This document shows, one piece after another, positions 22,379-64,000 of a stretch of DNA of 64,000 bases. Position numbers and translations under genes: made by a program. The stretch's first letter is position 1. Every line of letters starts with the position of its first letter. The notes under the pieces are model-generated. The model did not search any database, was not told the origin of the DNA, and saw only the letters and a list, made by a program, of their open reading frames with translations. Source of the stretch: Toxorhynchites rutilus septentrionalis (Eukaryota; Arthropoda; Insecta; Diptera; Culicidae); the NCBI RefSeq assembly GCF_029784135.1, contig NC_073744.1, positions 74,813,935 to 74,877,934 of the forward strand, given 5' to 3'.

Positions 22379-25300
22379 TTAGTCCTGACCGAGGAATTGT
22401 CGGACAATCGCGCAGGTGCTAAGGATGACCGACTTTTGGATGCCGGCCAATTCCTTCTCGATGTTCAACACCTTTAGCGCTTCCAGAAGTGTCTTCGGGA
22501 TAATTCCAGTTCCAGAGAGAACGACTGGAACAATTCTTGGGACCTCCCTTAGCCCCCACAGTTCCTTGAGCTCCACGGCCAATGGTCGGTACTTGCAGAT
22601 TTTGCGACCGTGGGTCTCCTCCAGATTCTGGTTCAGTGGAATAGCGACATCGATGATGGTGACTTTGCGGTCGCTCTTGTCGTAAACCATTATATCTGGG
22701 CGGTTGTGGTGGATCGAGAGGTCGGTCAGAACAGTGCGATCCCAGTACAGCTTGAAACGGTCATTTTCCAGGACAGGTGCAGGCAGGTACCGGTAGTTTG
22801 GTACGTTGTCTTCCAGTAGAGCACATTGGAGCGCCAGTTGTCGATGAACAATACGGGCCACGTTGTTGTGGCGCTCGGTGTAGGCTGCGTTGGCCAAAAC
22901 GGGACAGCCTCCCATAATGTGCTCTATGTTTTCACCTGGTTGATGGCACATCCGGCAAATGTCATCAACGTCTTGATGCCAGACGTACCGCCTGCAGTTT
23001 CTCGTCGGCATTATCCTGTCCTGGATGGCTATCATGTCGGCTTCTACTACTGAAGAGAGTTCACCACGCGTTAGCCACAGATTAGATGCGGCCTTGTCGA
23101 CGTGTGGCCGGTCCAGTTGATGGGGGTGGGCACCATGCACTGCCTTCTGCTTCCAAGCTGCAATCTTCTCCTCCACTGTCTGCAGATTGCAGTTGAGTTG
23201 GTACTCCGCTTGCGCCAAGTGCAGAGCGCTGTATCCTCTGTCGGCGGCGCAGACAGCCCGGTATAGCGCGTTTTGGTTGGCGCGTTCTGCGAAGTACTCG
23301 CGCAGTTGTCGTACCTGGGCAACACACAGTGCAGAAATGTCGACGATTCCAAGTCCCCCTTCTTTGCGTGGTAGTGAAACTCTCTCCAGTGCCGATTGAG
23401 GATGGTGCATTCCGGCCTCTTTGAATGCTTTCCTCATCCTCCTCTCAAGGTCCTCTAGGTTAGTTTTGCTCCATTTGACTACACCAAAACTGAAGGTCAG
23501 CAGGGGAACCGCGAATGTGTTGATCGCGCGTACCTTGTTCCCCGCGTTGAGGAAAGTCCTCAGGACACAGTTCACTCGACTCAAGAACTTGTCTCGCAGC
23601 TCCGTCTTGATGTCGGAGTGGCGAATCCCGGTGAGCTGTCGGAATCCAAGATATTTATAGGATTCGCCACGAACCATGTCTCTTATAAACTCGCCGTCAT
23701 AGACCTCGTAGCCTCCGGATTCGGTAAGTTGTCCTTTCAGCAGGTGGACACAGCGACACTTGTCGAGGCCGAACTCCATACAGATGTCCCTGCTTATGTC
23801 TTCGACAACCCGGATAGCTACACCTAGACGCTGACGTGAATCAGCGTAGACCTTGAGATCGTCCATGTAAAAGGTATGGGTCACTTCTTCGTGGGCGCCG
23901 TCGCCATACCTTATTTTATAGCCATGACCGTTTCTATTGAGCGTCCTACTGAGGGGGTTCAGTGCCAGACAAAACCAAAGCGGGCTGAAAGAGTCGCCTT
24001 GGAATATCCCCCTCTTTATCTGCAGCGTTCTAGACTGCAACACATTTTCCCCATCACTGAGGTGCAGAGACGTACTCCACTGCCTCATCGCATGCTGCAG
24101 GAACCTAACGACGACGGGATCAATTTTGTAGAGCTCCAATACCCGGACGAGAAACGAGTGAGGTATGAAGTCATAAGCCTTCCTGTAATCGATGTAGGCC
24201 ATACTTAGGTTCCGCTGGTTATATACCGCCTGGCCGACTATGGCTGCGTCGATGATGGCCTGGTCTTTGCAGCCATGCGTATTTTTCCTGCATCCTTTCT
24301 GCTCTTCTGCGATGATGTGATGCTGTTCGCAGTGAGCAGAAACTTTGGCGGTAATTATGCTGCTCAGTATTTTGTACAGACTCGATAGGCACGTTATCGG
24401 TCTGTACTTTGATGGGTTCAATGTGTTGCTGTCTTTCGGGAGGAGGAAGGTGACGCCACGGGTGGCGAATTCAGGAAGGTTGTGTGGGTCACGTAGCACC
24501 TTGTTGAAGCACTCAGCTATCTTTGGATGTGCGACGGTCAGCTTCTTGTGCCAAAAGTTCTGGACACCATCGGGGCCCGGTGCTGCCCAGTTCCTCAGGT
24601 ACCGCGAGGCTTCGCGGACATCGTTCTCTCCGACGATGATAGCTGGCATCTCTCCAATTTCACCACAACTCTCCTCCTCCCGTCTTAACCACATTTGCCC
24701 GTCGCGATGTTCTACTGGGGTCTCCCAAATACCAGCCCAGAAGTTCGTCACATCGCTAATATCTGGCAAACCTTCGCGGTAGTCGGGCTTCTCGTCGCTA
24801 ATGTGGTCGTAGAACGCTTTTTCGTTATCTCGTAAAATCCGATTTTGTTCCTGGCGCTTTGCAGAGTCAGAGTAACGTTTCAGCCGTTTAGTTAGGACGC
24901 TCAATTGCTGTACCAGTGTGTCGAGTTTTTCCGTCAGCTGGTGAGCTCCCAGCTGGCGAAGTTCAGTAGGCCGCACGATCACAGCAACTTGGCGACATAA
25001 TTTCGCCGATCTGCTGCCTCTTTTGTACGCCATCAGTCTTCCAATTGCGGCGCGCTTGTTTAGGATCCGTTGCTCCAATCTCCTTCGCCATGGAGGCTCA
25101 CGCCTTTCACGGAGATGTTGGAGCAGTCCGCCTCTTGGCCTAATACGGTATCCTAAACTTTTGGCGGTCGCCACAGCAGCACAGTAAACTTTCAGTTACA
25201 GCTCCTCCATGTTCTCAGCATCAACCAAGTGCAGCGGAAGAACGTGCTCGTTCATGAGCTTTACTGCACTTGTCAGCCTGCGGGAATGCTGCAACTTCGG

Positions 25301-41610: not shown

Positions 41611-44600
41611 TTTTTTTTATCCAAAATATATATTTTTATTAAGGCTCATATGGCGTCAGCCTAACGGGGCCGGGAGTTCAATTTTTCTACAATGTTTGCT
41701 TACAACTATGTTAGTAATATGTAACCGATTACTCGCGGTTGGCTCGAGGTTAGTATTACAAGTGTTCTCATAATTGGTATGTTGCAGTCTTCGATGCTCT
41801 GTACGTGTGCCCGACACGGGATACCTGCTATTGGGATGCAGCTGACCATTAATCAGCAACGCCCCCCTAGTCTGTACCCCATATCTAGCGTGGTGCGTCT
41901 TTCTCGACTCGAGGAATCCAGGATAGAATGGTCACTAGCCGGCGCAATCATCAGCTCGTGTAGAGTTGTCATAAGCGGTACAACCTTTGGCTCTTGTTGA
42001 ATGATCAGTGGACTGCACAACCTTTGGCCCGTGTATCTGTAAAGAGTGTGTGTATGTATTGCCGCGACTAAGTAAAAGTTTATCGTTTGGATAGGAGGGA
42101 TATGAAACGGGGACACAACGAAGTAAACATCATTAAACGTTGACATCGGCGTTTCTGAGGAACAGGTATAGATGAAGCAGAAGATCAGGATCACGGCTAC
42201 CTAAGATATCCCGGACGGGGATATCCGATTGTCTGCCTTGTGCTCTCAGTACTCTAGAGAGCTGAGAGCGAGCAGCATGGAACCGGATACACGACCAGAC
42301 AACATGCTCGATGTCGTGGTAGCCATCGCCACAATCACAAAGATTGTTTGCTGCGAGCCCAATGCGATAGAGATGCGCGTTTAGGTTGTAGTGATTGGAC
42401 ATAAGCCGAGATATCACGCGAATGAAATCACGACCTACATTCAATCCCTTGAACCATGCACTCGTCGAGACCTTAGGGATAATCGTGTGTAACCAACGAT
42501 CGAACTCATCTTCACTCCACATGCGCTGCCAACTTACGAGCGTATTCTGACGAGGAATGTGGAAAAATTCATTATAAGCAATTTGCCTTTCAAAAAGTGT
42601 GCTTTCTGAAGCGCCCACCTTAGCTAGCGAGTCCGCTTTCTCATTCCCCGGTATCGAGCAATGAGAGGGAACCCATGCTAAGGTAATCTTGAATAATTTT
42701 TCGACCAAAACACTCAATAGTTGTCTTATTCTTGTTAGGAAATAAGATGAGCATTTATCAACTTTCATTGAGCGGATTGCCTCTATTGAGCTGAGACTGT
42801 CTGAAAAAATAAAATAGTGGTCGATGGGCAATGTTTCAATGATCCCTAATGCGTAATATATCGCACCCAGTTCAGCGACATACACGGAACAAGGATCTTT
42901 GAGTTTGAAAGAGGCACTGGAATTTTCATTGAAGATGCCGAAGCCAGTGGACCCGTTTATGAATGAACCGTCAGTAAAGAACATTTTATCAGATCTAACT
43001 TTCCCATATTCTGCCGAAAATATCGGCGGAATAGAATCGGAGCGTAGGTGATCTGGTATTCCATGGATTTTTTGTCGCATGGACAGATCAAAAATGACAG
43101 AGGAATTGCAGAAGTATGGGAAGCAAACTTGGTTGGAGATGCCTGGTGAAGGGTGCACGTCGTGGGTAAGGTACTCATGGTATAAAGACATAAAACTTGA
43201 CTGAGGATTCAGTTGGAGTAGATTTTCGAAGTTATCAATCACCAATGGATTCATGATCTTGCAACGGATGAGAAATCTGTAGGATAATTTTGTGAACCGA
43301 AGAGTAAGCGGGGGTACTCCTGCCAAAACTTCGAGACTCGTCGTATGTGTCGAATGCAAACACCCCATGGCTATACGCAAGCAACGATATTGTATTCTCT
43401 CCAGCTTGAGAATATGAATCCTGGCAGCTGATCGGAAGCAAAAACTGCCATATTCTAACACTGATAATATCGTTGTTTTGTACAACTGAATGAGGTCTCC
43501 TGGATGGGCACCCCACCATGTTCCGGTAATTGTTTGGAGAAAATTGATTCTTTGCTGGCATTTCTGTTTCAAATACGCAATGTGTCTCCCCCAGGTACAC
43601 TTAGAATCAAAATATACAACCAGGTATTTGAAAAACATAGAGTGTTGGATCGTTTTGCCGGATAGGTGAAGCTGGAATTGGGCGGGTTCGTGCTTCCTAG
43701 AAAATACGACCATTTCAGTTTTCTCCGTAGAGAATTCGATACCCAGCTTGAGGGCCCACGTGAACAGATTGTTCAGGGTATCTTGCAACGACTTTTGCAG
43801 AACGACGGGATTAGTACCCGTGATGGAAATAACTCCATCGCCTGCAAGTTGTCTCAACGTGCAGTCTCTAGTTAGACAATCATCCATATCATTGACGTAA
43901 AAACTGTACAAGAGGGGGCTTAGGCAGGAGCCTTGTGGTAGGCCCATAAAACTGTAACGAGAAGATTTCGAGCTGCCATGAGAGAAAATCATGTGCTTTT
44001 CTGACAGTAAATTGTACAGGAAATTATTGAGAATTGGTGAAAGTCCACGATTATGAAGCTTCTCTGAGAGAATTTCCATGGAAACTGAATCAAATGCCCC
44101 TTTGATATCGAGAAAAACGGAAGCCATTTGTTCTTTGCGAGCAAATGCGATTTGGATTTCAGAAGATAGCAGCGCGAGACAATCATTTGTCCCTTTACCT
44201 CGGCGGAAGCCAAACTGCGTATTTGACAGCAAATTGTTCGTTTCGACCCACTTGTCCAAACGAAGTAGAATCATTTTCTCTAACAATTTACGAATACAGG
44301 ATAACATTGAAATCGGCCTATACGAGTTGTGATCGCTAGCCGGCTTGTTGGGTTTCCGTATGGCTATCACTCTCACTTGTCTCCAGTCATGCGGGACAAT
44401 ATTCAGCTCCAGAAACTTGTTGAACAAGTTCAGCAAACGCTGTTTTGCCAAGTCGGGAAGATTCTTCAACAAGTTGAATTTAATCTTGTCCGACCCCGGA
44501 GGTGAATTGTTACATGAGAGAAGGGCAATTGAGAATTCCACCATCGAAAAATTCTCATAATCGCTTTGAAGTGGAATGTCGCGTACGACGTTTTGTGCAG

Positions 44601-44885
44601 GAACGGTGTCGGGGCAAACCTTCCTTGCAAAGTTAAAAATCCAACGGTCAGAGTATTCCTCACTTTCGTTTGTATGGTTCCAGCCACGCAATTTCCTAGC
44701 CGTATTCCAAAGAGTGCTCATAGCGGTCTCCCTTGACAAACCATTGACGAACTTCCGCCAATATCCACGCTTTTTTGCTTTAATCAAACCTTTTAGTTTG
44801 GCTTCTAGAGCTTGGTACTTTAGAAACCATTCCACTAATCCAGTTTTCCTGTGGAATGTGGAATAATTCAATGTTGAATCCGAGG
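41611..44885 (-). mobile_element. I-like LINE, 5'-truncated
   Basis: On the minus strand it holds RT, RNase H, a CCHC-like tail, a 3' UTR and an A-rich tail (T8 on the plus strand at 41611). It lacks the endonuclease and ORF1. The 3' 1.1 kb matches the fragment at 16,035-17,318. No convincing target duplication was seen, so the 5' end is approximate. Confidence 0.85.
42133..44871 (-). pseudogene. I-like LINE ORF2 (RT and RNase H), endonuclease missing
   Basis: The 912-codon frame is open. RT motifs are SDHNSYRPISMLSC, ASVFLDIKGAFDSV and LPQGSCLSPLLYSFYVND, and the catalytic box reads RQLAGDGVISI. Relatives have LADD at that site, so the first Asp of the pair is Gly here (codon near residue 344, plus-strand 43840-43842). 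RNase H follows with FFTDGSFINGSTG, AELGAIYYALG, FSDSLSS and NEKADSLAK. The end is a CDCGDGYHDIEHVVWSC motif. The missing endonuclease and the changed RT Asp make it inactive. Confidence 0.85.
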
Positions 44886-45220
44886 AGTTATAATGCTAAG
44901 AACCGATATTATTTTAATGTTACCACTGATCTGATTGTTTCATTATCTACTTGAAGATTCAAATGCAGAAATTTAGATAATTATGACATTAAAAAGCACA
45001 ATTGCTTCTTCATCGTGCACAGAAAATAGTAATTCTATGAGCAGCGTTTCAATGGTTTCTTATATTCATCTATTAGGAAACACTAAGTATTAAGACACTA
45101 TCGTGACAGACATGTTTGGACTCTAAAGTCAATAATCATGAAAGTAATGACGTCATTAAATCGCGACATGGCAAAACAAGCTTGCAGCAGTTTCCGGAAG
45201 CGTCTTACAGCGGTCAGCGA

Positions 45221-51155: not shown

Positions 51156-51363
51156 TGTCAACTACACATGAAAGCCTGGAAAACCGGAAATACTCAGGGA
51201 ATTTCATAACTCGATGAATACAGTCTTTACTTTCTGTGCAATCTAATATGAGTAGGCCTTGCTATGTATAATAATAGAGAATCAGAATATACTGGACTAT
51301 CGAACGAACAACACGTGTTTAATCAGTGGTCAGCAAATAGAATCCGAATACCGAGGTACCACA
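51156..51363 (+). repeat. 5' LTR (208 bp, boundaries inferred)
   Basis: It begins TGTCAACTACAC and ends GGTACCACA, i.e. TG...CA, two bases before the primer-binding site. The 3' LTR lies outside the window, so the left boundary rests on the TG motif alone. Confidence 0.55.
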
Positions 51364-51365
51364 TC

Positions 51366-51378
51366 TGGCGACGAGGAT
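51366..51378 (+). promoter_or_regulatory. Primer-binding site, complementary to tRNA-Ser(GCU) 3' end
   Basis: TGGCGACGAGGAT complements the CCA-ended 3' terminus ATCCTCGTCGCCA that I recall for insect tRNA-Ser(GCU). It sits just after the LTR, where minus-strand DNA synthesis is primed. Confidence 0.7.
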
Positions 51379-51443
51379 TAATCGGACTTGATTGAAAAGT
51401 TGGTAAGTCATAAGAAATCGAAAAGATTATCTGATACGATCAG

Positions 51444-51655
51444 GATCCACTGCGTTAAGCAGGACACTCCGCTGCTAAAAGCAGGGAAAGGCGTAAAAGC
51501 CTGAGTTAAAAAAAAAAAAAAAAAGATCCACTGCATCATGCAGGACACTCCGTTGCTAGTAGCAAGGAAAAACGAAAAACAAAATCTGTTGCCAAGAGCA
51601 TGGAAAACCAATGAGTGAAAAAAAAAAAAAAAAAAAAGAAGGCTTGCCTAGATCG

Positions 51656-51690
<35 letters not shown>
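51444..51690 (+). repeat. Leader ladder of short hairpins separated by poly(A) runs
   Basis: Two related units start GATCCACTGC (51444, 51525). They contain the hairpins CTGCgttaaGCAG, CTGCtaaaaGCAG, AGGCgtaaaaGCCT, CTGCAtcaTGCAG and TTGCTagtAGCAA, then AGGCttGCCT. The units end in A17 (51508-51524), A20 (51618-51637) and A35 (51656-51690). The first LINE copy begins three bases after the last A-run. Confidence 0.75.
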
Positions 51691-51693
<3 letters not shown>

Positions 51694-51694
<1 letters not shown>

Positions 51695-51863
51695 GTTCTC
51701 AAATGGGGATCAACATAGGGTAGGAGCCTGCCTGTTGGTCTCAAATGTTCCTATCTCACGCCTCCACGAAGATCATATGACGACATTTTTAGATCGGGCG
51801 TGAACTGGAAACACACACCTGGTCTTGGCTCCGAGAACGGGTGTCGAAAGTGGCTAAGTGAGG
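51694..51863 (+). ncRNA. HDV-like ribozyme fold at 5' end of RLE-LINE copy 3
   Basis: The sequence matches the copy 4 fold over its whole length, offset by 4075 bases. The bases before G1 are AAATTT, so a transcript entering from the LTR would be cut at the LINE 5' end if the fold is active. Confidence 0.5.
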
Positions 51864-51970
51864 GGGTGCGAGCGAGTCAGAGCGCTATATCTCTCCCGGG
51901 GAAGGCCTCCCGGGTCATGGAGGCCTTGCCAACCCGCTGTCTCCCGGGCAAAGGAGATACACCCAATAAA

Positions 51971-54900
51971 ATGGAGCTACGATCACGAAGAATAATTAGA
52001 ATGCGATCACCCGAGGAGGGTCCCCGAACTGGAGCTGGTCCTGGAACGGGCGTAAGAGCGAGCGGCCAGCGGCTGGAGGGCGATGTGCAAGAGCGGGCCA
52101 CCAGCCGGGTTCAACCCGAAGAGCTACCGCCACACGGAAACAGCAGCCATCGACATCACCCAAGAAACGCTGCGCCTACGAGACGTGTTGCGACTGCCAG
52201 ACGACAGTCGTCCACACTTGTGGGTACCACTAGGCGCCGGATCATGTGGACACACGAAATGAATGAATTCGTGATCCGCGCCTATTACATCTGCACTGCT
52301 TTGGAGACGGACATGAGCGGTCGCCCTCGAATACTAACAATGTTCGAGGAAGCGTATCCAGAGTTCGTCGGGAGGCTTGATCAGAACGCGATGAACGCGA
52401 GGCGTAGAGCGATAGTACGCAACAACATGCTCTCCCAAACGCAAATCGACGAGATCAAGCAGCAGGTGCAGAGAGAAATAAGCTCCAGGAACAACAGAGC
52501 AAGCGATGTGTCGAGACGAAGTTCAGTACGGCTGAGCAATTCATTCGCGAGTGGGGCACGCGAATCAGCACCAGTGGAGGCCACAGTACTACAACCCCCT
52601 GAGCCGGAAGACCCACAGCCAGATCAACAACTACTACGCGATCTGGTCTTCCACTACGACGAGGCGATCTCACAGTTCCGCGACACAGACCCATTGTCGC
52701 GCCCCAGGATCCCGAAGTTGCAGCATTCCCGCAGGCTGACAAGTGCAGTAAAGCTCATGAACGAGCACGTTCTTCCGCTGCACTTGGTTGATGCTGAGAA
52801 CATGGAGGAGCTGCAACTGAAAGTTTACTGTGCTGCTGTGGCGACCGCCAAAAGTTTAGGATACCGTATTAGGCCAAGAGGCGGACTGCTCCAACATCTC
52901 CGTGAAAGGCGTGAGCCTCCATGGCGAAGGAGATTGGAGCAACGGATCCTAAACAAGCGCGCCGCAATTGGAAGACTGATGGCGTACAAAAGAGGCAGCA
53001 GATCGGCGAAATTATGTCGCCAAGTTGCTGTGATCGTGCGGCCTACTGAACTTCGCCAGCTGGGAGCTCACCAGCTGACGGAAAAACTCGACACACTGGT
53101 ACAGCAATTGAGCGTCCTAACTAAACGGCTGAAACGTTACTCTGACTCTGCAAAGCGCCAGGAACAAAATCGGATGTTCAGAGATAACGAAAAAGCGTTC
53201 TACGACCACATTAGCGACGAGAAGCCCGACTACCGCGAAGGTTTGCCAGATATTAGCGATGTGACGAACTTCTGGGCTGGTATTTGGGAGACCCCAGTAC
53301 AACATCGCGACGGGCAAATGTGGTTAAGACGGGAGGAGGAGAGTTGTGGTGAAATTGGAGAGATGCCAGCTATCATCGTCGAAGAGAACGATGTCCGCGA
53401 AGCCTCGCGGTACCTGAGGAACTAGGCAGCACCGGGCCCCGATGGTGTTCAGAACTTCTGGCACAAGAAGCTGACCGTCGCACATCAAAAGATAGCTGAG
53501 TGCTTCAACAAGGTGCTACGTGACCCACACAACCTCCCTGAATTCGCCACCCGTGGCGTCACATTCCTCCTCCCGAAAGACAGCAACACATTGAACCCAT
53601 CAAAGTACAGGCCGATAACGTGCCTATCGAGTCTGTACAAGATATTAAGCAGCATCATAACCGCCAAAGTTTCTGCCCACTGCGAACAACACCATATCAT
53701 CGCAGAAGAGCAGAAAGGATGCAGAAAAAATACGCATGGCTGCAAAGACCAGGCCATCATCGACGCAACCATAGTCGGCCAGGCGGTTTATAATCAGCGG
53801 AACCTAAGCATGGCCTATATCGATTACAGGAAGGCTTATGACTCCATACCTCACTCGTTTCTCGTCCGGGTATTGGAGCTCTACAAAATTGATCCCGTCG
53901 TCGTTAGGTTCCTGCAGCATGCGATGAGGCAGTGGAGCACGTCTCTGCACCTTAGTGATGGGGAAAATGTGTTGCAGTCTAGAACGCTGCAGATAAAGAG
54001 GGGGATATTCCAAGGCGACTCTTTCAGCCCGCTTTGGTTTTGTCTGGCACTGAACCCCCTCAGTAGGACGCTCAATAGAAACGGTCATGGCTATAAAATA
54101 AGGTATGGCGACGGCGCCCACGAAGAAGTGACCCATACCTTTTACATGGACGATCTCAAGGTCTACGCTGATTCACGTCAGCGTCTAGGTGTAGCTATCC
54201 GGGTTGTCGAAGACATAAGCAGGGACATCTGTATGGAGTTCGGCCTCGACAAGTGTCGCTGTGTCCACCTGCTGAAAGGACAACTTACCGAATCCGGAGG
54301 CTACGAGGTCTATGACGGCGAGTTTATAAGAGACATGGTTCGTGGCGAATCCTATAAATATCTTGGATTCCGACAGCTCACCGGGATTCGCCACTCCGAC
54401 ATCAAGACGGAGCTGCGAGACAAGTTCTTGAGTCGAGTGAACTGTGTCCTGAGGACTTTCCTCAACGCGGGGAACAAGGTACGCGCGATCAACACATTCG
54501 CGGTTCCCCTGCTGACCTTCAGTTTTGGTGTAGTCAAATGGAGCAAAACTGACCTAGAGGACCTTGAGAGGAGGATGAGGAAAGCATTCAAAGAGGCCGG
54601 AATGCACCATCCTCAATCGGCACTGGAGAGAGTTTCACTACCACGCAAAGAAGGGGGACTTGGAATCGTCGACATTTCTGCACTGTGTGTTGCCCAGGTA
54701 CGACAACTGCGCGAGTACTTCGCAGAACGCGCCAACCAAAACGCGCTATACCGGGCTGTCTGCGCCGCCGACAGAGGATACAGCGCTCTGCACTTGGCGC
54801 AAGCGGAGTACCAACTCAACTGCAATCTGCAGACAGTGGAGGAGAAGATTGCAGCTTGGAAGCAGAAGGCAGTGCATGGTGCCCACCCCCATCAACTGGA

Positions 54901-55633
54901 TCGGCCACACGTCGACAAGGCCGCATCTAATCTGTGGCTAACGCGTGGTGAACTCTCTTCAGTAGTAGAAGCCGACATGATAGCCATCCAGGACAGGATA
55001 ATGCCGACGAGAAACTGCAGGCGGTACGTCTGGCATCAAGACGTTGATGACATTTGCCGGATGTGCCATCAACCAGGTGAAAACATAGAACACATTATGG
55101 GAGGCTGTCCCGTTTTGGCCAACGCAGCCTACACCGAGCGCCACAACAACGTGGCCCGTATTGTTCATCGACAACTGGCGCTCCAATGTGCTCTACTGGA
55201 AGACAACGTACCAAACTACCGGTACCTGCCTGCACCTGTCCTGGAAAATGACCGTTTCAAGCTGTACTGGGATCGCACTGTTCTGACCGACCTCTCGATC
55301 CACCACAACCGGCCAGATATAATGGTTTACGACAAGAGCGACCGCAAAGTCACCATCATCGATGTCGCTATTCCACTGAACCAGAATCTGGAGGAGACCC
55401 ACGGTCGCAAAATCTGCAAGTACCGACCATTGGCCGTGGAGCTCAAGGAACTGTGGGGGCTAAGGGAGGTCCCAAGAATTGTTCCAGTCGTTCTCTCTGG
55501 AACTGGAATTGTCCCGAAGACACTTCTGGAAGCGCTAAAGGTGTTGAATATGGAGAAGGAATTGGCCGGCATCCAAAAGTCGGTCATCCTTAGCACCTGC
55601 GCGATTGTCCGACAATTTCTCGGTCAGGACTGA
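51971..55633 (+). pseudogene. RLE-LINE ORF, copy 3 (one nonsense codon)
   Basis: The frame from ATG 51971 matches the intact copy but has TAG at 53423-53425 in place of Trp485 (the RNWAAPGPDG motif at the start of the RT). The rest is open to TGA at 55633. In this copy a single-base difference before the ATG (CCCAATAAAATGG) also puts an upstream ATG at 51800 in the same frame, adding 57 codons; the other copies have that upstream frame separate. Private changes include T for A in the DATIVG segment and D for N in KTDLEDL. Confidence 0.9.
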
Positions 55634-55768
55634 AACAGCACGAGCATGCAGATACGTGCATTCCGCAGAGCCTAGTCCCCCTTTGGCATTCAGAAGCCCG
55701 GGGGCAGGTGAAAATTCTGGCTAGATTCGCCTAGTTAAGAAGTGAGATAAGTCTGCCAAAAAAAAAAA

Positions 55769-55938
55769 GGTTCTCAAATGGGGATCAACATAGGGTAGGA
55801 GCCTGCCTGTTGGTCTCAAATGTTCCTATCTCACGCCTCCACGAAGATCATATGACGACATTTTTAGATCGGGCGTGAACTGGAAACACACACCTGGTCT
55901 TGGCTCCGAGAACGGGTGTCGAAAGTGGCTAAGTGAGG
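55769..55938 (+). ncRNA. Candidate HDV-like self-cleaving ribozyme at LINE 5' end (copy 4)
   Basis: Pairings in the order of the nested double pseudoknot: P1 GGTTCTC (55769-55775) with GTGAACT (55875-55881), with a G1-U wobble and one U-U mismatch. P2 TCTCAC (55829-55834) pairs with GTGAGG (55933-55938). P3 GCC (55835-55837) pairs with GGC (55872-55874). P1.1 uses CC (55839-55840) and GG (55882-55883). P4 ACACC (55890-55894) pairs with GGTGT (55915-55919). J4/2 is GGCTAA (55927-55932), with the catalytic C at 55929. R2-type LINEs are known to use such ribozymes. Large J1/2 and L3 loops are the weak points. Confidence 0.5.
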
Positions 55939-56044
55939 GGGTGCGAGCGAGTCAGAGCGCTATATCTCTCCCGGGGAAGGCCTCCCGGGTCATGGAGGCC
56001 TTGCCAACCCGCTGTCTCCCGGGCAAAGGAGATACACCCAGAAA

Positions 56045-59000
56045 ATGGAGCTACGTTCACGAAGAGTAATTAGAATGCGATCACCCGAGGAGGGTCCCCG
56101 AACTGGAGCTGGTCCTGGAACGGGCGTAAGAGCGAGCGGCCAGCGGCTGGAGGGCGATGTGCAAGAGCGGGCCACCAGCCGGGTTCAACCCGAAGAGCTA
56201 CCGCCACACGGAAACAGCAGCCATCGACATCACCCAAGAAACGCTGCGCCTACGAGACGTGTTGCGACTGCCAGACGACAGTCGTCCACACTTGTGGGTA
56301 CCACTAGGCGCCGGATCATGTGGACACACGAAATGAATGAATTCGTGATCCGCGCCTATTACATCTGCACTGCTTTGGAGACGGACATGAGCGGTCGCCC
56401 TCGAATACTAACAATGTTCGAGGAAGCGTATCCAGAGTTCGTCGGGAGGCTTGATCAGAACGCGATGAACGCGAGGCGTAGAGCGATAGTACGCAACAAC
56501 ATGCTCTCCCAAACGCAAATCGACGAGATCAAGCAGCAGGTGCAGAGAGAAATAAGCTCCAGGAACAACAGAGCAAGCGATGTGTCGAGACGAAGTTCAG
56601 TACGGCTGAGCAATTCATTCGCGAGTGGGGCACGCGAATCAGCACCAGTGGAGGCCACAGTACTACAACCCCCTGAGCCGGAAGACCCACAGCCAGATCA
56701 ACAACTACTACGCGATCTGGTCTTCCACTACGACGAGGCGATCTCACAGTTCCGCGACACAGACCCATTGTCGCGCCCCAGGATCCCGAAGTTGCAGCAT
56801 TCCCGCAGGCTGACAAGTGCAGTAAAGCTCATGAACGAGCACGTTCTTCCGCTGCACTTGGTTGATGCTGAGAACATGGAGGAGCTGCAACTGAAAGTTT
56901 ACTGTGCTGCTGTGGCGACCGCCAAAAGTTTAGGATACCGTATTAGGCCAAGAGGCGGACTGCTCCAACATCTCCGTGAAAGGCGTGAGCCTCCATGGCG
57001 AAGGAGATTGGAGCAACGGATCCTAAACAAGCGCGCCGCAATTGGAAGACTGATGGCGTACAAAAGAGGCAACAGATCGGCGAAATTATGTCGCCAAGTT
57101 GCTGTGATCGTGCGGCCTACTGAACCTCGCCAGCTGGGAGCTCACCAGCTGACGGAAAAACTCGACACACTGGTACAGCAATTGAGCGTCCTAACTAAAC
57201 GGCTGAAACGTTACTCTGACTCTGCAAAGCGCCAGGAACAAAATCGGATGTTCAGAGATAACGAAAAAGCGTTCTACGACCACATTAGCGACGAGAAGCC
57301 CGACTACCGCGAAGGTTTGCCAGATATTAGCGATGTGACGAACTTCTGGGCTGGTATTTGGGAGACCCCAGTACAACATCGTGACGGGCAAATGTGGTTA
57401 AGACGGGAGGAGGAGAGTTGTGGTGAAATTGGAGAGATGCCAGCTATCATCGTCGAAGAGAACGATGTCCGCGAAGCCTCGCGGTACCTGAGGAACTGGG
57501 CAGCACCGGGCCCCGATGGTGTTCAGCACTTCTGGCACAAGAAGCTGACCGTCGCACATCAAAAGATAGCTGAGTGCTTCAACAAGGTGCTACGTGACCC
57601 ACACAACCTCCCTGAATTCGCCACCCGTGGCGTCACATTCCTCCTCCCGAAAGACAGCAACACATTGAACCCATCAAAGTACAGGCCGATAACGTGCCTA
57701 TCGAGTCTGTACAAGATATTAAGCAGCATCATAACCGCCAAAGTTTCTGCCCACTGCGAACAACACCATATCATCGCAGAAGAGCAGAAAGGATGCAGGA
57801 AAAATACGCATGGCTGCAAAGACCAGGCCATCATCGACGCAGCCATAGTCGGCCAGGCGGTATATAACCAGCGGAACCTAAGTATGGCCTACATCGATTA
57901 CAGGAAGGCTTATGACTCCATACCTCACTCGTTTCTCGTCCGGGTATTGGAGCTATACAAGATTGATCCCGTCGTCGTTAGGTTCCTGCAGCATGCGATG
58001 AGGCAGTGGAGCACGTCTCTGCACCTTAGTGATGGGGAAAATGTGTTGCAGTCTAGAACGCTGCAGATAAAGAGGGGGATATTCCAAGGCGACTCTTTCA
58101 GCCCGCCTTGGTTTTGTCTGGCACTGAACCCCCTCAGTAGGACGCTCAATAGAAACGGTCATGGCTATAAAATAAGGTATGGCGACGGCGCCCACGAAGA
58201 AGTGACCCATACCTTCTACATGGATGATCTCAAGGTCTACGCTGATTCACGTCAGCGTCTAGGTGTAGCTATCCGGGTTGTCGAAGACATAAGCAGGGAC
58301 ATCTGCATGGAGTTCGGCCTCGACAAGTGCCGCTGTGTCCATCTGCTGAAAGGGCAGCTTACCGAATCCGGAGGTTACGAGGTCTATGACGGCGAGTTCA
58401 TAAGAGACATGGTTCGTGGCGAATCCTATAAATATCTTGGATTCCGACAGCTCACCGGGATTCGCCACTCCGACATCAAGACGGAGCTGCGAGACAAGTT
58501 CTTGAGTCGAGTGAACTGTGTCCTGAGGACTTTCCTCAATGCGGGGAACAAGGTACGCGCGATCAACACATTCGCGGTTCCCCTACTGACCTTCAGTTTT
58601 GGTGTAGTCAAATGGAGCAAAACTAACCTAGAGGACCTTGAGAGGAGGATGAGGAAAGCATTCAAAGAGGCCGGAATGCACCATCCTCAATCGGCACTGG
58701 AGAGAGTTTCACTGCCACGCAAAGAAGGGGGACTTGGAATAGTCGACATATCTGCACTGTGTGTTGCCCAGGTACGACAACTGCGCGAGTACTTCGCAGA
58801 ACGCGCCAACCAAAACGCGCTATACCGGGCTGTCTGCGCCGCCGACAGAGGATACAGCGCTCTGCACTTGGCGCAAGCGGAGTACCAACTCAACTGCAAT
58901 CTGCAGACAGTGGAGGAGAAGATTGCAGCTTGGAAGCAGAAGGCAGTGCATGGTGCCCACCCCCATCAACTGGACCGGCCACACGTCGACAAGGCCGCAT

Positions 59001-59707
59001 CTAATCTGTGGCTAACGCGTGGTGAACTCTCTTCAGTAGTAGAAGCCGACATGATAGCCATCCAGGACAGGATAATGCCGACGAGAAACTGCAGGCGGTA
59101 CGTCTGGCATCAAGACGTTGATGACATTTGCCGGATGTGCCATCAACCAGGTGAAAACATAGAGCACATTATGGGAGGCTGTCCCGTTTTGGCCAACGCA
59201 GCCTACACCGAGCGCCACAACAACGTGGCCCGTATTGTTCATCGACAACTGGCGCTCCAATGTGCTCTACTGGAAGACAACGTACCAAACTACCGGTACC
59301 TGCCTGCACCTGTCCTGGAAAATGACCGTTTCAAGCTGTACTGGGATCGCACTGTTCTGACCGACCTCTCGATCCACCACAACCGCCCAGATATAATGGT
59401 TTACGACAAGAGCGACCGCAAAGTCACCATCATCGATGTCGCTATTCCACTGAACCAGAATCTGGAGGAGACCCACGGTCGCAAAATCTGCAAGTACCGA
59501 CCATTGGCCGTGGAGCTCAAGGAACTGTGGGGGCTAAGGGAGGTCCCAAGAATTGTTCCAGTCGTTCTCTCTGGAACTGGAATTATCCCGAAGACACTTC
59601 TGGAAGCGCTAAAGGTGTTGAACATCGAGAAGGAATTGGCCGGCATCCAAAAGTCGGTCATCCTTAGCACCTGCGCGATTGTCCGACAATTCCTCGGTCA
59701 GGACTAA
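56045..59707 (+). CDS. RLE-LINE protein: RT, CCHC, restriction-like endonuclease
   Basis: The intact 1220-residue protein copies the LINE RNA at a nicked target. The N-terminal region is basic, with a Myb-like RRRIMWTHEMNEFVIRAYY block near residue 90. RT starts near residue 484 (AAPGPDG), with KYRPITCLSS, YIDYRKAYDS, QGDSFSP and the FYMDD box near residue 724. A zinc motif CRMCHQPGENIEHIMGGC lies near 1028, and the nuclease core RPDIMVYDKSDRKVTIIDVA near 1112 has the PD...D pattern. Single-ORF plan and RT phrases point to the R4/Dong side of RLE-LINEs. Residue 688 is Pro where both other copies have Leu in the conserved SPL-WF motif, which may harm activity. Confidence 0.92.
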   Translation: MELRSRRVIRMRSPEEGPRTGAGPGTGVRASGQRLEGDVQERATSRVQPEELPPHGNSSHRHHPRNAAPTRRVATARRQSSTLVGTTRRRIMWTHEMNEFVIRAYYICTALETDMSGRPRILTMFEEAYPEFVGRLDQNAMNARRRAIVRNNMLSQTQIDEIKQQVQREISSRNNRASDVSRRSSVRLSNSFASGARESAPVEATVLQPPEPEDPQPDQQLLRDLVFHYDEAISQFRDTDPLSRPRIPKLQHSRRLTSAVKLMNEHVLPLHLVDAENMEELQLKVYCAAVATAKSLGYRIRPRGGLLQHLRERREPPWRRRLEQRILNKRAAIGRLMAYKRGNRSAKLCRQVAVIVRPTEPRQLGAHQLTEKLDTLVQQLSVLTKRLKRYSDSAKRQEQNRMFRDNEKAFYDHISDEKPDYREGLPDISDVTNFWAGIWETPVQHRDGQMWLRREEESCGEIGEMPAIIVEENDVREASRYLRNWAAPGPDGVQHFWHKKLTVAHQKIAECFNKVLRDPHNLPEFATRGVTFLLPKDSNTLNPSKYRPITCLSSLYKILSSIITAKVSAHCEQHHIIAEEQKGCRKNTHGCKDQAIIDAAIVGQAVYNQRNLSMAYIDYRKAYDSIPHSFLVRVLELYKIDPVVVRFLQHAMRQWSTSLHLSDGENVLQSRTLQIKRGIFQGDSFSPPWFCLALNPLSRTLNRNGHGYKIRYGDGAHEEVTHTFYMDDLKVYADSRQRLGVAIRVVEDISRDICMEFGLDKCRCVHLLKGQLTESGGYEVYDGEFIRDMVRGESYKYLGFRQLTGIRHSDIKTELRDKFLSRVNCVLRTFLNAGNKVRAINTFAVPLLTFSFGVVKWSKTNLEDLERRMRKAFKEAGMHHPQSALERVSLPRKEGGLGIVDISALCVAQVRQLREYFAERANQNALYRAVCAADRGYSALHLAQAEYQLNCNLQTVEEKIAAWKQKAVHGAHPHQLDRPHVDKAASNLWLTRGELSSVVEADMIAIQDRIMPTRNCRRYVWHQDVDDICRMCHQPGENIEHIMGGCPVLANAAYTERHNNVARIVHRQLALQCALLEDNVPNYRYLPAPVLENDRFKLYWDRTVLTDLSIHHNRPDIMVYDKSDRKVTIIDVAIPLNQNLEETHGRKICKYRPLAVELKELWGLREVPRIVPVVLSGTGIIPKTLLEALKVLNIEKELAGIQKSVILSTCAIVRQFLGQD

Positions 59708-59931
59708 AACAGCACGAGCATGCAGATACGTGCATTCCGCAGAGCCTAGTCCCCCTTTGGCATTCAGAAGCCCGGGGGCAGGTGAAAATTCTGGCTAGGT
59801 TCGCCTAGTTAAGAAGTGAGATAAGTCTGCCAAAAAAAAAAAAATGTTTTAAATTCAACAGCTTTCATTAGTTACCTTGACAACCACCACTGTTGTGCAT
59901 TATTTTTTTTTCAGAGCGGAAATTATCGGAA

Positions 59932-60462
59932 ATGGAAAATTGGAATATAAATCCTTTCAAATTCAATCATCTTCCCGAAACATTAACCCGGAAAGAATGG
60001 ATAAGGTGGAAAAGGAATTTTGAAGTCATTGTAGCTGCAAGTGAAGAGAGAAACGCATCCAGGCTGAAGAACATATTGCTAGCAAAGGGAGGTTTAGAGT
60101 TACAGGATCTATTCTATTCTATTGATGGAGCGGATGTCGAGGAAGACAAGGAACGAGGAATCGACCCTTACAAAATAGCAATTGAAAAACTCGATCAACA
60201 CTTTTTGCCGAAGCAACACGATTCATTTGAACGGAATGAATTTTGTAAATTAATACCCGCAACTACTCAGGATGGATCTTGCGAAACGTTGTCAAAATTC
60301 TTGATGCGATGTTCGGAACAGGCGAAACGATGTGATTTTGGGAACACGAGTGTAGAGAGTCGGGAATTAAGGATTATTGATAAGGTAATATACTATGCAC
60401 CAACGGAACTGAGAGAAAAGTTGTTACATGAAGAAAAAGTGACGCTTTCACAACTCACATGA
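59932..60462 (+). pseudogene. Ty3/gypsy gag, N-terminal part up to an in-frame TGA
   Basis: The start MENWNINPFKFN follows a likely acceptor at 59914. The capsid-like region has TLTRKEWIRWKRNFEVIVAA and helical stretches to residue 176. TGA at 60460-60462 then interrupts the frame before the zinc knuckles. The same frame continues at once with MVNSFESIKQQ, so one substitution (for example CGA to TGA) explains the stop. Readthrough is the alternative. Confidence 0.75.
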
Positions 60463-61608
60463 ATGGTGAACTCGTTCGAATCGATTAAACAACAAGCGAA
60501 AACAATTGCGGGACCTGGATTTGAAAACGCGCCATTAACTACAACTGATAACGTTGAACGAATCAACAAACTCAACAATTCAATAAAACATAACCGTATT
60601 ACCTGCTATCGTTGTGGACTGCTTAATCACCATGCAACTGACCGTGAATGTCCGGCCCGTGGAAGGAAATGTGAAAAGTGTCACAAGATAGGTCATTATG
60701 CAAAAGTATGTCGATCAGTACAAAATTTCAAACGGCGATACGAAGGACCATCGGCGCATCGTCCAGAGAAGCGAACCAGATATGGAAATGTCCGTGCTAT
60801 CGTGGAAGAAGAAAAACCTCATCTAAATGAATCAGAAAGTTTCATTTTTAACATCGGTGATGGCGACGAATTTTTATGGACTAAGATTGGAGGAGTGTTG
60901 ATCCAGGTGTTAATTGATTCAGGTAGTTCAAAGAATATTATCGACGATGCAACCTGGAAATATATGAAGAAACAAGGATTAAGAAGCTGGATTCCACAAC
61001 AAGTTCCTAATACAATTCTTCGGGGATATGGTCGAGAAGCAAAGCCGTTGAAGATAGTGAATGTGTTTGAAGCAACCATTACAGTAGAATCAGGAAGCAG
61101 TAAATTTGAAACAATCGCAATGTTCTATGTTGTGGAAGGCGGTTTGCAGTCACTACTTGGAAAAGAAACTGCAAAGTGCTTAGGAGTGCTGAAAATTGGA
61201 TTTACGAATCCTGAACAATCAATCAACGCGGTAGTTCCTATAGCGAATCGACCATTTCCTAAGATGAAAAATGTTCGAGTAAGGATTCCTGTTAATCAAG
61301 ACATCACTCCAATAGTTCAAAGAGCTCGTCGTCCTCCTATTGCGTTACTCAGTCGGATCGAAGAGAAATTAAATGAACTGTTGATACGCGACATCATCGA
61401 ACCTGTATCGGGTCCATCGCCTTGGGTATCACCATTGGTAACCATTGTGAAAGATAACGGCGATCTTCGGCTTTGTGTGGATATGCGAAGACCAAATCAA
61501 GCAATTCAGAGAGAATACCATGTGATGCCTACGTTTGAAGATTTTCTGCCTCAATTCAAATCAGCAAGATTCTTTAGTCGATTAGACATCAAAGATGCCT
61601 TTCACCAA
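60463..61608 (+). CDS. Ty3/gypsy gag end, protease and first part of RT
   Basis: In frame with the capsid segment. Two zinc knuckles (CYRCGLLNHHATDREC, CEKCHKIGHYAKVC; about 60603-60711) form the nucleocapsid. The protease has the active-site LIDSGSSKNIID near 60910. The RT begins with RRPPIALLSRIEEKLNELL and runs through GPSPWVSPLVTIVKDNGDLR, CVDMRRPNQAI and SRLDIKDAFHQ, which ends exactly at 61608, before GTAAGA. Without splicing the frame stops at TAA 61627-61629. Confidence 0.85.
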
Positions 61609-61744
61609 GTAAGAACTCTTAAAGAGTAATAATAATAATAGTAGTAAAATAGTCAAACATTTCGGGAATATCTACTATATGAATTGTGCATTTTTATATA
61701 TACTTAGTATGTTCATAAAATTGTATTTTACTTCAATTTCTCAG
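61609..61744 (+). other. Putative 136-bp spliceosomal intron inside the reverse transcriptase
   Basis: The donor is CAA/GTAAGA and the acceptor TTTCTCAG/ATA, phase 0. The segment is AT-rich with stops in all frames. Its removal joins DAFHQ to IELEESSRY exactly as in relatives (DAFHQIEL), with no residue gained or lost. Confidence 0.7.
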
Positions 61745-64000
61745 ATAGAACTGGAAGAATCATCACGATATATAACAACCTTCATTTGTCATAAAGGATT
61801 ATTCAGATATAAACGCCTAATGTTTGGCATTTCCTGTGCTCCAGAAATGTTCCAGAAAATTTTGGAACATATTCTATCGGAATGTGATAATGTTGTAAAT
61901 TATATAGATGACATAATCGTCTCGGGAGACACTGATGCAGAACATGATGCAGCGTTGAAGAAAGTGCTCCATGTTCTGGAAAGCAGGAACATATTGCTAA
62001 ACAAGGACAAATGTATTTTCAAAGTCAAACAAATCGAGTTTCTGGGTCATCTGATTTCATCGGAAGGAATTAAGCCAACTAAAAGTAAAATTGAAGCACT
62101 GCAAAAGTTTCGCGAACCAAGAAACTCTGAAGAAGTTAGAAGCTTCTTGGGTCTAGTAACATACGTGGGAAAATTTATTCCTGATTTAGCTACAATAACG
62201 GAACCTCTAAGGCAGCTTATATGCAAAAATAATAGGTTTACATGGGAAAGAAAACATCAAAGCAGCTTTGACCTTTTGAAAAGCATGATTGCTAATGTAA
62301 AAACGCTTTCATTTTTCAATAATTCTTTGAGAACTCGAGTTATAGCTGATGCTTCTCCAGTGGCTCTAGGTGCAGTGCTTGTTCAGTTTGAAGGAAGAAC
62401 GGATGCTAATCCACAGATTGTAAGCTATGCAAGCAAAAGTCTAACCATAACCGAGAAACGATATTGCCAAACGGAAAAGGAGGCGCTTGCACTGGTATGG
62501 GCAGTCGAAAAATTTTCAGTTTATCTCATCGGTAGAGAATTTGAATTAGAGACCGACCATAAGCCGTTGGAAACCATATTTTCGCCTTCATCCACGCCTT
62601 GTGCTCGAATTGAACGATGGGTGTTGAGGCTTCAATCCTTCAAATACACTGTGAAATATAGGAAAGGTTCTGATAATATTGCTGACTCGCTCTCTAGACT
62701 GGTGATAGCAGAGGATCCTGTTGAATTCGAGAAGGACAATCATTTTTTAGTTCTAGCGGTACAGGAATCAGTAGCGGTGGACGTAGGAGAGATTGAGAAC
62801 GCTACAAGAACAGACCTCGAACTCAAAGCTGTTCGAGATTCACTCGTATCAGGAAACTGGAGCAACGTTTTAGTGAAGTCGTATGAACCGTTCCGGAATG
62901 AATTGGGTTTAATTGAAGACACAATTGTAAGAGGGAATAAACTTGTTGTACCTCGGGAACTTCGTCAACGCATGCTGCAGCTCGCTCATGAAGGCCATCC
63001 TGGGGAATCAATCATGAAAAGACGATTAAGAGATCGCGCCTGGTGGCCAGGCATGGATCGCGAGGCAAAGGATTATGTTTCATGCTGTGAAGGTTGCCAG
63101 TTAGTCGGAATGCCAAATAAACCGCTCCCGATGAGCAGACGAGAATTGCCAACAAAACCCTGGATAGACGTTGCAATCGATTTCATGGGTCCTTTGCCAT
63201 CCGGAGAGTACTTGCTGGTAATAGTCGACTATTTCAGTAGATACAAAGAAGTAGAAGTTATGTCAAGAATAAATTCTCGTGATACTGTTGAAAAGTTAGC
63301 CAAAATATTCACGAGACTAGGATATCCAAGGACAATAACGCTTGACAATGCCAGACAATTCATTGGAAAAGAGTTTGGAGAATTTTGCAAATTAAACGGG
63401 ATTGTACTAAATCATACCGCGCCATATTGGCCTCAAGAAAATGGGTTGGTAGAGAGACAAAACAGGTCACTCTTGAAGCGGCTACAGATCAGTTACGCAT
63501 TGAAACGAGATTGGAAGAAAGACTTGAATGATTATTTACTAATGTACTATACAACTCCTCATTCAACAACCGGTAAAACTCCAACTGAAATGTGTTTCGG
63601 TCGTACGATCAGATCCAAGTTGCCTTCAATCGAGGATATTGAAACTACACCTCCATCATCAGAGTATCGAGATTTGGACAAAATCAATAAAGAAAAAGGG
63701 AAAATAAGGGAGGACAGAAGGCGTCATGCTCAGGTTTCAGACATCCAGAAGGGAGATACTGTGTTAATGGAAAATCGTTTACCATCCAACAAATTAGCCA
63801 CAACGTTCAATACAGCTAAATACACTGTGCTGGATCGCGCTGGTCCGAGAGCTACAATACAGGATCAAGATACAGGAAAAACATTTCAAAGAAATGTCGC
63901 ACATTTGAAAAGATTTATCCCTCCATTTACAGAAGCAGCAACTACATCAATTACCACTGCAGGTTCAGAAGAGGACACAGCACCATCGACATCCAGCAAT
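61745..64000 (+). CDS. Ty3/gypsy RT (rest), RNase H and integrase, open at window end
   Basis: The frame is open for all 752 codons to the window edge, so there are no lesions. RT continues with GLFRYKRLMFGISCAP and YIDD (61901-61912). RNase H has VIADASPVALGAVL, KEALALVWAVEKF and ETDHKPLE. Integrase has the zinc-binding HEGHPG...CCEGC (about 62980-63105). Its catalytic Asp is in VAIDFMGPL, the second in TLDNARQF and the Glu in NGLVERQN. A GPY/F-like basic tail follows (DTVLMENRLPSNKLATTFN). The product makes and integrates element cDNA. Expression needs either removal of the upstream 136 bp or separate translation. Confidence 0.88.
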   Translation, partial: MELEESSRYITTFICHKGLFRYKRLMFGISCAPEMFQKILEHILSECDNVVNYIDDIIVSGDTDAEHDAALKKVLHVLESRNILLNKDKCIFKVKQIEFLGHLISSEGIKPTKSKIEALQKFREPRNSEEVRSFLGLVTYVGKFIPDLATITEPLRQLICKNNRFTWERKHQSSFDLLKSMIANVKTLSFFNNSLRTRVIADASPVALGAVLVQFEGRTDANPQIVSYASKSLTITEKRYCQTEKEALALVWAVEKFSVYLIGREFELETDHKPLETIFSPSSTPCARIERWVLRLQSFKYTVKYRKGSDNIADSLSRLVIAEDPVEFEKDNHFLVLAVQESVAVDVGEIENATRTDLELKAVRDSLVSGNWSNVLVKSYEPFRNELGLIEDTIVRGNKLVVPRELRQRMLQLAHEGHPGESIMKRRLRDRAWWPGMDREAKDYVSCCEGCQLVGMPNKPLPMSRRELPTKPWIDVAIDFMGPLPSGEYLLVIVDYFSRYKEVEVMSRINSRDTVEKLAKIFTRLGYPRTITLDNARQFIGKEFGEFCKLNGIVLNHTAPYWPQENGLVERQNRSLLKRLQISYALKRDWKKDLNDYLLMYYTTPHSTTGKTPTEMCFGRTIRSKLPSIEDIETTPPSSEYRDLDKINKEKGKIREDRRRHAQVSDIQKGDTVLMENRLPSNKLATTFNTAKYTVLDRAGPRATIQDQDTGKTFQRNVAHLKRFIPPFTEAATTSITTAGSEEDTAPSTSSN

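Follow-up and report, generated by a model that had tools for sequence, protein, structure and literature searches.

We analysed a 64,000-nucleotide (nt) stretch of the Toxorhynchites rutilus septentrionalis genome (contig NC_073744.1, positions 74,813,935 to 74,877,934; hereafter the window, with positions counted from its first letter), whose last 13 kb are occupied by a Ty3/gypsy element on the + strand. The reverse transcriptase (RT) of this element is broken by a putative spliceosomal intron. Exon 1 (frame 60463-61629) reads ...LDIKDAFHQ and then runs into the gap for six codons (VRTLKE), where it meets seven stops in a row, and exon 2 restarts at 61745, one frame over, as IELEESSRY.... 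The G+C content of the gap is 0.23, against 0.43 and 0.34 in the 200 nt on either side. The element is laid out as follows.

51230..51234, + strand: target duplication of 5 bp, left copy CTTTC; the right copy lies 3' of the 3' long terminal repeat (LTR), outside the window
51235..51363, + strand: 5' LTR, 129 bp; the identical 3' LTR is at L019:836-964, past the window end
51366..51376, + strand: primer binding site (PBS)-like TGGCGACGAGG, named from its location
51403..51408, + strand: donor-like GTAAGT in the leader, by motif only
51690..59843, + strand: two non-LTR retrotransposons, head-to-tail, in the leader; ends approximate
59904..59914, + strand: acceptor-like poly-T CAG just 5' of gag, by motif only
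59932..60459, + strand: gag, which opens exon 1 and is ended by an in-frame stop
60463..61608, + strand: remainder of exon 1, with CCHC knuckles (nucleocapsid-like), DSG (protease-like) and RT up to DAFHQ
61609..61744, + strand: putative intron, 136 nt, phase 0, GTAAGA...TTTCTCAG
61627..61647, + strand: seven consecutive stop codons of the exon-1 frame, within the intron
61745..64000, + strand: exon 2, with the remaining RT, RNase H and integrase; open on to L019:774

The segment 61609-61744 has the ends of a GT-AG intron, and without it the reading frame would match that of relatives. Two of these relatives read uninterrupted across the joint, as DAFHQ|VELNESCRH in P0012 (an assembled contig) and as DAFHQ|IELEESSRY in P0002 (an NCBI gene model). 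An earlier note on this DNA, made from its letters alone, had proposed an intron here, and its coordinates and frames (136 nt, phase 0, resumption at IELEE) are exact; its claim that deleting the gap restores the family alignment is borne out by P0012 and P0002. No transposon footprint was seen at the edges of the window's intron.

Near-identical copies of the element are present elsewhere in the genome. A 501-base probe was run against the 902.6-Mb assembly, with 40 of 48 first-look candidates scored, and returned 51 matches. Six of these, the window among them, are 100% identical to the probe including the intron. One further match, at 94%, keeps the intron with GT and AG ends intact, one is partial, and the remainder are shorter matches, to fragments or to diverged relatives. 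The six insertions sit in six different target duplications (CTTTC, GATAC, GATTT, CGTTT, AATGT and AACAG), each with an identical LTR pair, and over ~3.5 kb the five other copies differ from the window by 4-6 bases, none of them in the intron. The earlier note had proposed looking in other copies for the same intron at the same place; all six carry it, identical and in the same position. Since six separate insertions all hold the intron, each was copied from intron-containing RNA, and the insertions themselves show that intron-bearing, unspliced RNA is reverse transcribed. The segment is well supported as a spliceosomal intron of the element family, not one private to the window copy. Separately, L008 and L023 hold a diverged family copy lacking the donor, with ~5.8 kb separating the matched parts.

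A retroelement that moves via RNA is expected to lose introns, and a sister family holds one apparent case. L031 carries a 134-nt intron and a GCATC duplication, while L037, flanked by GTTGG and with identical 121-bp LTRs, lacks exactly the intron, with its frame open across the joint. The two insertions are 98.0% identical upstream and 99.7% downstream. That other families also have an interruption here is the ground for reading the change as a loss rather than a gain, and its simplest cause would be splicing followed by reverse transcription. A second case emerges from a protein tree built on exon-1 sequence with 85 rows, where the intronless L044, L046 and L048 are nested in the window's intron clade, under five starred branches. 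Of the 24 rows in that clade, 20 are interrupted; the others are these three and P0002, a gene model in which splicing is unreadable. L044, L046, L047 and L048 are uninterrupted at the joint (DAFHQ|IELAE(E/K)SR); in L045 a stop falls on the Q codon. The exact absence in L037 and the nested intronless lineage together imply in vivo splicing of introns of this kind; it is strongly implied that sister introns are removed exactly and the product copied back.

Related families of the same genome bear introns at three DNA-verified points. The DAFHQ point is broken in three more families, L056/L057/L088, L085/L086 and L087, by introns of varied sequence: GTGGGC...TTTTAG in L056 (254 nt) and L057 (257 nt), with L088 showing the donor side; GTAGGT...TTGTAG in L085 and L086; and GTGCAC...TTTTTAG in L087. 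A second point, 17 codons further and in phase 1, is used by seven near-identical loci (L029, L032-L036 and L038) and by the other families L031 and L042, the L042 interruption being read from translation only. The third point lies 20 codons past DAFHQ in phase 2 (L062, L089 and L090), and in all three loci the donor itself is an in-frame stop. These three points fall within about 20 codons of RT. By eye, the L056 and L087 introns have common stretches at both ends and different stops, and these conserved parts might be relevant to splicing control. Certain phase-1 introns, in L032 and L042, seemingly end in AAG and not in CAG or TAG. By eye, some sister introns also have AGGT-like repeats at both ends, an appearance that ordinary AG|GT junctions give as well.

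The same end point recurs in open reading frames (ORFs) of relatives, among them ones from other species. With part of exon 1 as query, the best 16 of the 120 listed matches all end in DAFHQ, V and then 1-8 residues, a regularity beyond what chance would give. By reading, 30 of the 120 are of this type, two of them extending 21 and 36 residues; among the others many run on into RT and some end elsewhere. When exon 1 of a distant family from the same genome served as query, 110 of 120 listed matches ended here, with V plus at most 10 residues, and 83 of those 110 ended within 3 residues, V counted. The other 10 comprise five that span the joint, two that end 18 and 20 residues on, one that ends in IID and two that stop earlier. 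Sources of such ends include Ochlerotatus, Armigeres, Uranotaenia, Sabethes, Anopheles funestus, Topomyia, Malaya and the hoverfly Eupeodes corollae; for contigs known from protein only, an ORF end alone does not prove an intron. Taken together, the intron point at DAFHQ appears to be old. One Armigeres subalbatus protein that NCBI names 'isoform X1' (P0251) ends in FHQVG.

Another subfamily (P0145, P0149, P0151, P0154 and P0155) has ORFs that end ~8 codons past DAFHQ (..ESCR), the pattern expected of an additional intron point; this candidate is known from ORF ends. An own-genome search with P0149 returned full-length matches of at most 52% identity and short ones of up to 79%.

Intron states were counted on a second tree of 147 rows (97 uninterrupted; 31, 8, 6 and 5 of four interrupted types), after 12 rows of unclear type had been dropped; some 'uninterrupted' rows are gene models that may hide an intron. 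No fewer than 13 changes are needed to explain the intron-state labels, whereas shuffled labels needed 46.6 on average. The DAFHQ-point type needs 5 changes, at least 3 of them forced by starred branches; the tree is therefore compatible both with an ancient origin followed by losses and with recurrent gain.

The closeness of the first stop to the donor was also counted across relatives. Of 140 ORFs given, 132 had V at this position and ended no more than 40 residues past Q; we dropped two as coding and kept one ORF per identity cluster; 22-32% would be expected to end within 3 residues (V counted) at assumed stop frequencies of 8-12%. The observed counts were 52/77 at 80% clustering, 33/45 at 70% and 10/15 at 60%. 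In five of ten families read from DNA, by our own grouping, the first stop is directly followed by another (all four DAFHQ-point families and L090), two of these double-stop introns being partly alike and hence not independent. These counts favour, short of proof, selection for terminating the frame of the unspliced RNA. AT-rich introns are in any case expected to have stops close to the donor.

We consider it likely that the unspliced RNA serves both as genome and as the message for Gag and protease (Gag-PR), and that the spliced RNA yields Gag-Pol. That unspliced RNA is the replicating genome of the element is shown by the intron in each of the six near-identical insertions. In sister copies this RNA would also be translated into a protein of ~565 codons containing Gag, protease and the RT fingers, ending soon past the donor. 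Splicing would join the RT halves to give Gag-Pol, as the frames and the relatives indicate. Were splicing incomplete, both messages would coexist, and the efficiency of splicing could keep Gag in excess of Pol, standing in for the ribosomal frameshifting or stop readthrough of other elements. Spliced RNA would occasionally be copied back into intronless insertions, as the L031/L037 pair and the one lineage in the window's clade suggest. The earlier note had offered unspliced RNA as genome and spliced RNA as the source of Pol as one of two branches, and the exact absence in L037 and the nested loss make it the better supported of them. Its term 'splicing switch', in the sense of regulated splicing, goes further than the data, and intronless sister families also multiply. 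Somewhat less securely, yet with the balance slightly in favour, we extend the proposal to a large, old Ty3/gypsy group of flies and mosquitoes that would set its ratio of Gag to Gag-Pol by intron retention and not by recoding. In such a group, stops would be held at the donor, introns would have arisen at several points, and spliced copies would have founded intronless lineages.

Several results weigh against this interpretation. The 51 probe matches, obtained with 40 of 48 candidates scored, included no member of the window's own family without the intron, and for that reason splicing in this family is deduced from its clade. Relatives without an intron are common and also multiply, as open frames of 1364 codons at four loci show, and the wider group therefore does not require the intron. 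Among the 120 listed exon-2 matches, the five closest relatives (73-76% identity) include only one, P0002, that spans the joint, and this gene model is the sole candidate spliced sequence of the window's clade among the matches listed. The excess of early stops is gone at 50% clustering, where 2/4 stop early, and when five of six introns were shuffled singly an early stop was never significant (lowest P 0.072). Finally, of the 95 distant-group ORFs that have a second residue past Q, 4 have R or S there and 25 have G, which suggests many weak donors and makes it less sure that all of these ORF ends are donors. Weak-looking donors would also fit partial splicing.

Much of this would be accommodated if the intron were real and spliced yet without function, tolerated as unspliced RNA is packaged and persisting by descent. 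The multiplication of intronless relatives, the early stops that AT-rich introns give anyway, and intron states that cluster on the tree like simple inheritance all agree with such an account. It is harder to reconcile with introns at three DNA-verified points of a single gene, all inside about 20 codons, and with the early-stop excess that survives 60-80% clustering, and a useless intron should be erased by easy loss through reverse transcription; we regard it as rather unlikely, though worth keeping in view. A restraint like that of the P element, in which splicing would be confined to the germline and retained-intron RNA elsewhere would give a truncated protein, possibly a repressor, seems to us improbable. 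Exact loss in heritable copies does suggest germline splicing, and the Drosophila P element IVS3 and gypsy splicing are so controlled (PMC7776569). Against it, the truncated product, judging from its frame, would hold structural proteins that the element needs.

Two remaining explanations deserve hardly any weight. The earlier note's other branch, that the interruption was gained by the window copy after insertion, for example as a small transposon, is refuted by the identical intron in five other independent insertions and by relatives' ORFs, also in related families, that end at the same residue. Nor do we give real credence to an element without splicing, in which translation crosses or restarts past the gap or RT consists of two chains. 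Such ORF pairs would be indistinguishable at the protein level, but L037, an otherwise near-identical insertion, lacks the exact 134-nt segment and has a single open frame, and the GT and AG ends are kept while lengths and sequences differ between families.

The rest of the element fits a Ty3/gypsy retrotransposon. It has LTRs, 5-bp duplications in 6/6 copies, a PBS-like motif, an A-run plus GGAGA as polypurine tract 5' of the 3' LTR, and the order RT, RNase H, integrase; one copy measures 4960 bp. We take TGGCGACGAGG to be the probable PBS from its location after the 5' LTR, and the motif also lies 3' of the 5' LTR in L031, L037 and L056. The CCHC and DSG motifs of exon 1 are presumably those of nucleocapsid and protease; the exon-1 part 60463..61608 gave no Pfam match. 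Relatives carry the label 'K02A2.6-like', and the element may belong to the mag / K02A2.6-like clade. A scan of IMG/VR with exon 2 (P0001) found no relative. The exon-2 frame is open for 752 codons inside the window, as the earlier note stated, and for 258 past its end, and its domains follow the order RVT_1, RT_RNaseH, Integrase_H2C2, rve. That note's judgement that the copy is not generally decayed holds for exon 2 and has to be qualified upstream, where gag has an in-frame stop and the leader two non-LTR insertions. The gag stop (60460-60462) is absent from five other near-identical copies. The leader insertions are 98.9% alike over ~4.1 kb, together span ~8.1 kb and are inserted in an A-rich tract.

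The donor-like and acceptor-like motifs of the leader make a second intron, in the 5' leader (51403-59914), possible. By eye, the leaders of two sister families (L056; L031/L037) show similar donor-like and poly-T CAG motifs, and the candidate stretch is retained in L037, the copy without the RT intron. The window has other long RT-bearing ORFs, at 22379-25195 (- strand, RVT_1) and 42133-44895 (- strand, RVT_1 and RNase_H).

Retroelements with introns are known. Intron-bearing Penelope-like elements share this trait with the window element; they are not LTR elements and belong to a different RT group. Ogre transcripts are reportedly partially spliced (Neumann 2003 and Steinbauerova 2008, by their titles). 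Ogre, a plant Ty3/gypsy element, has an intron in pol that is carried by genomic copies (PMC2533021), like the element described here, and its pol intron is the closest known system, closer than the P element. Ogres are plant elements of giant size that have an additional ORF upstream of gag, whereas the window element is an insect element of ~5 kb, and the pol intron is all they have in common. Unlike Ogre, the window's group is cut in RT directly after DAFHQ, has several points in sister families and includes a near-identical pair with and without the intron. In copia, BARE1 and EVADE, splicing shifts the balance of Gag and Pol (PMC3735527 and PMC12786077), but there it excises pol or shifts the frame away from it and so yields Gag, and in the proposed arrangement splicing would yield Pol and retention Gag. 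Cer1, a Ty3/gypsy-related element of C. elegans, resembles the window element in that its genomic RNA stays unspliced despite its splice sites and must exit the nucleus in that form; it differs in coding, with GAG and POL made from the unspliced RNA and an accessory protein, CERV, from the spliced one (PMC10309623). In the P element, IVS3 retention gives a truncated protein and splicing gives transposase (PMC7776569). The earlier note's comparison with it is fair as a description of how the element might work, with the plant Ogre pol intron being closer: the P element is a DNA transposon whose intron cannot be lost via an RNA intermediate, and the window element has LTRs, RT and integrase. Achilles, an LTR element of the olive fly, has a single uninterrupted frame. 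In the open-access literature searched, seen in part, no insect Ty3/gypsy element was found described as having an intron in its RT, and none of the systems compared unites such an intron in an animal Ty3/gypsy element with multiple intron points and a near-identical pair of insertions with and without the intron.

Intron-bearing and intron-free near-identical insertions in one genome make the fate of both RNA forms countable. Several NCBI mosquito proteins, 'K02A2.6-like' or unnamed, look like retained-intron halves, which affects gene annotation. If intron retention does set the two messages, splicing would take the place of recoding as the control of their ratio across a widespread set of insect elements, and host control of splicing, for example by PIWI-interacting RNAs (piRNAs), would gain a direct handle on reverse transcriptase.
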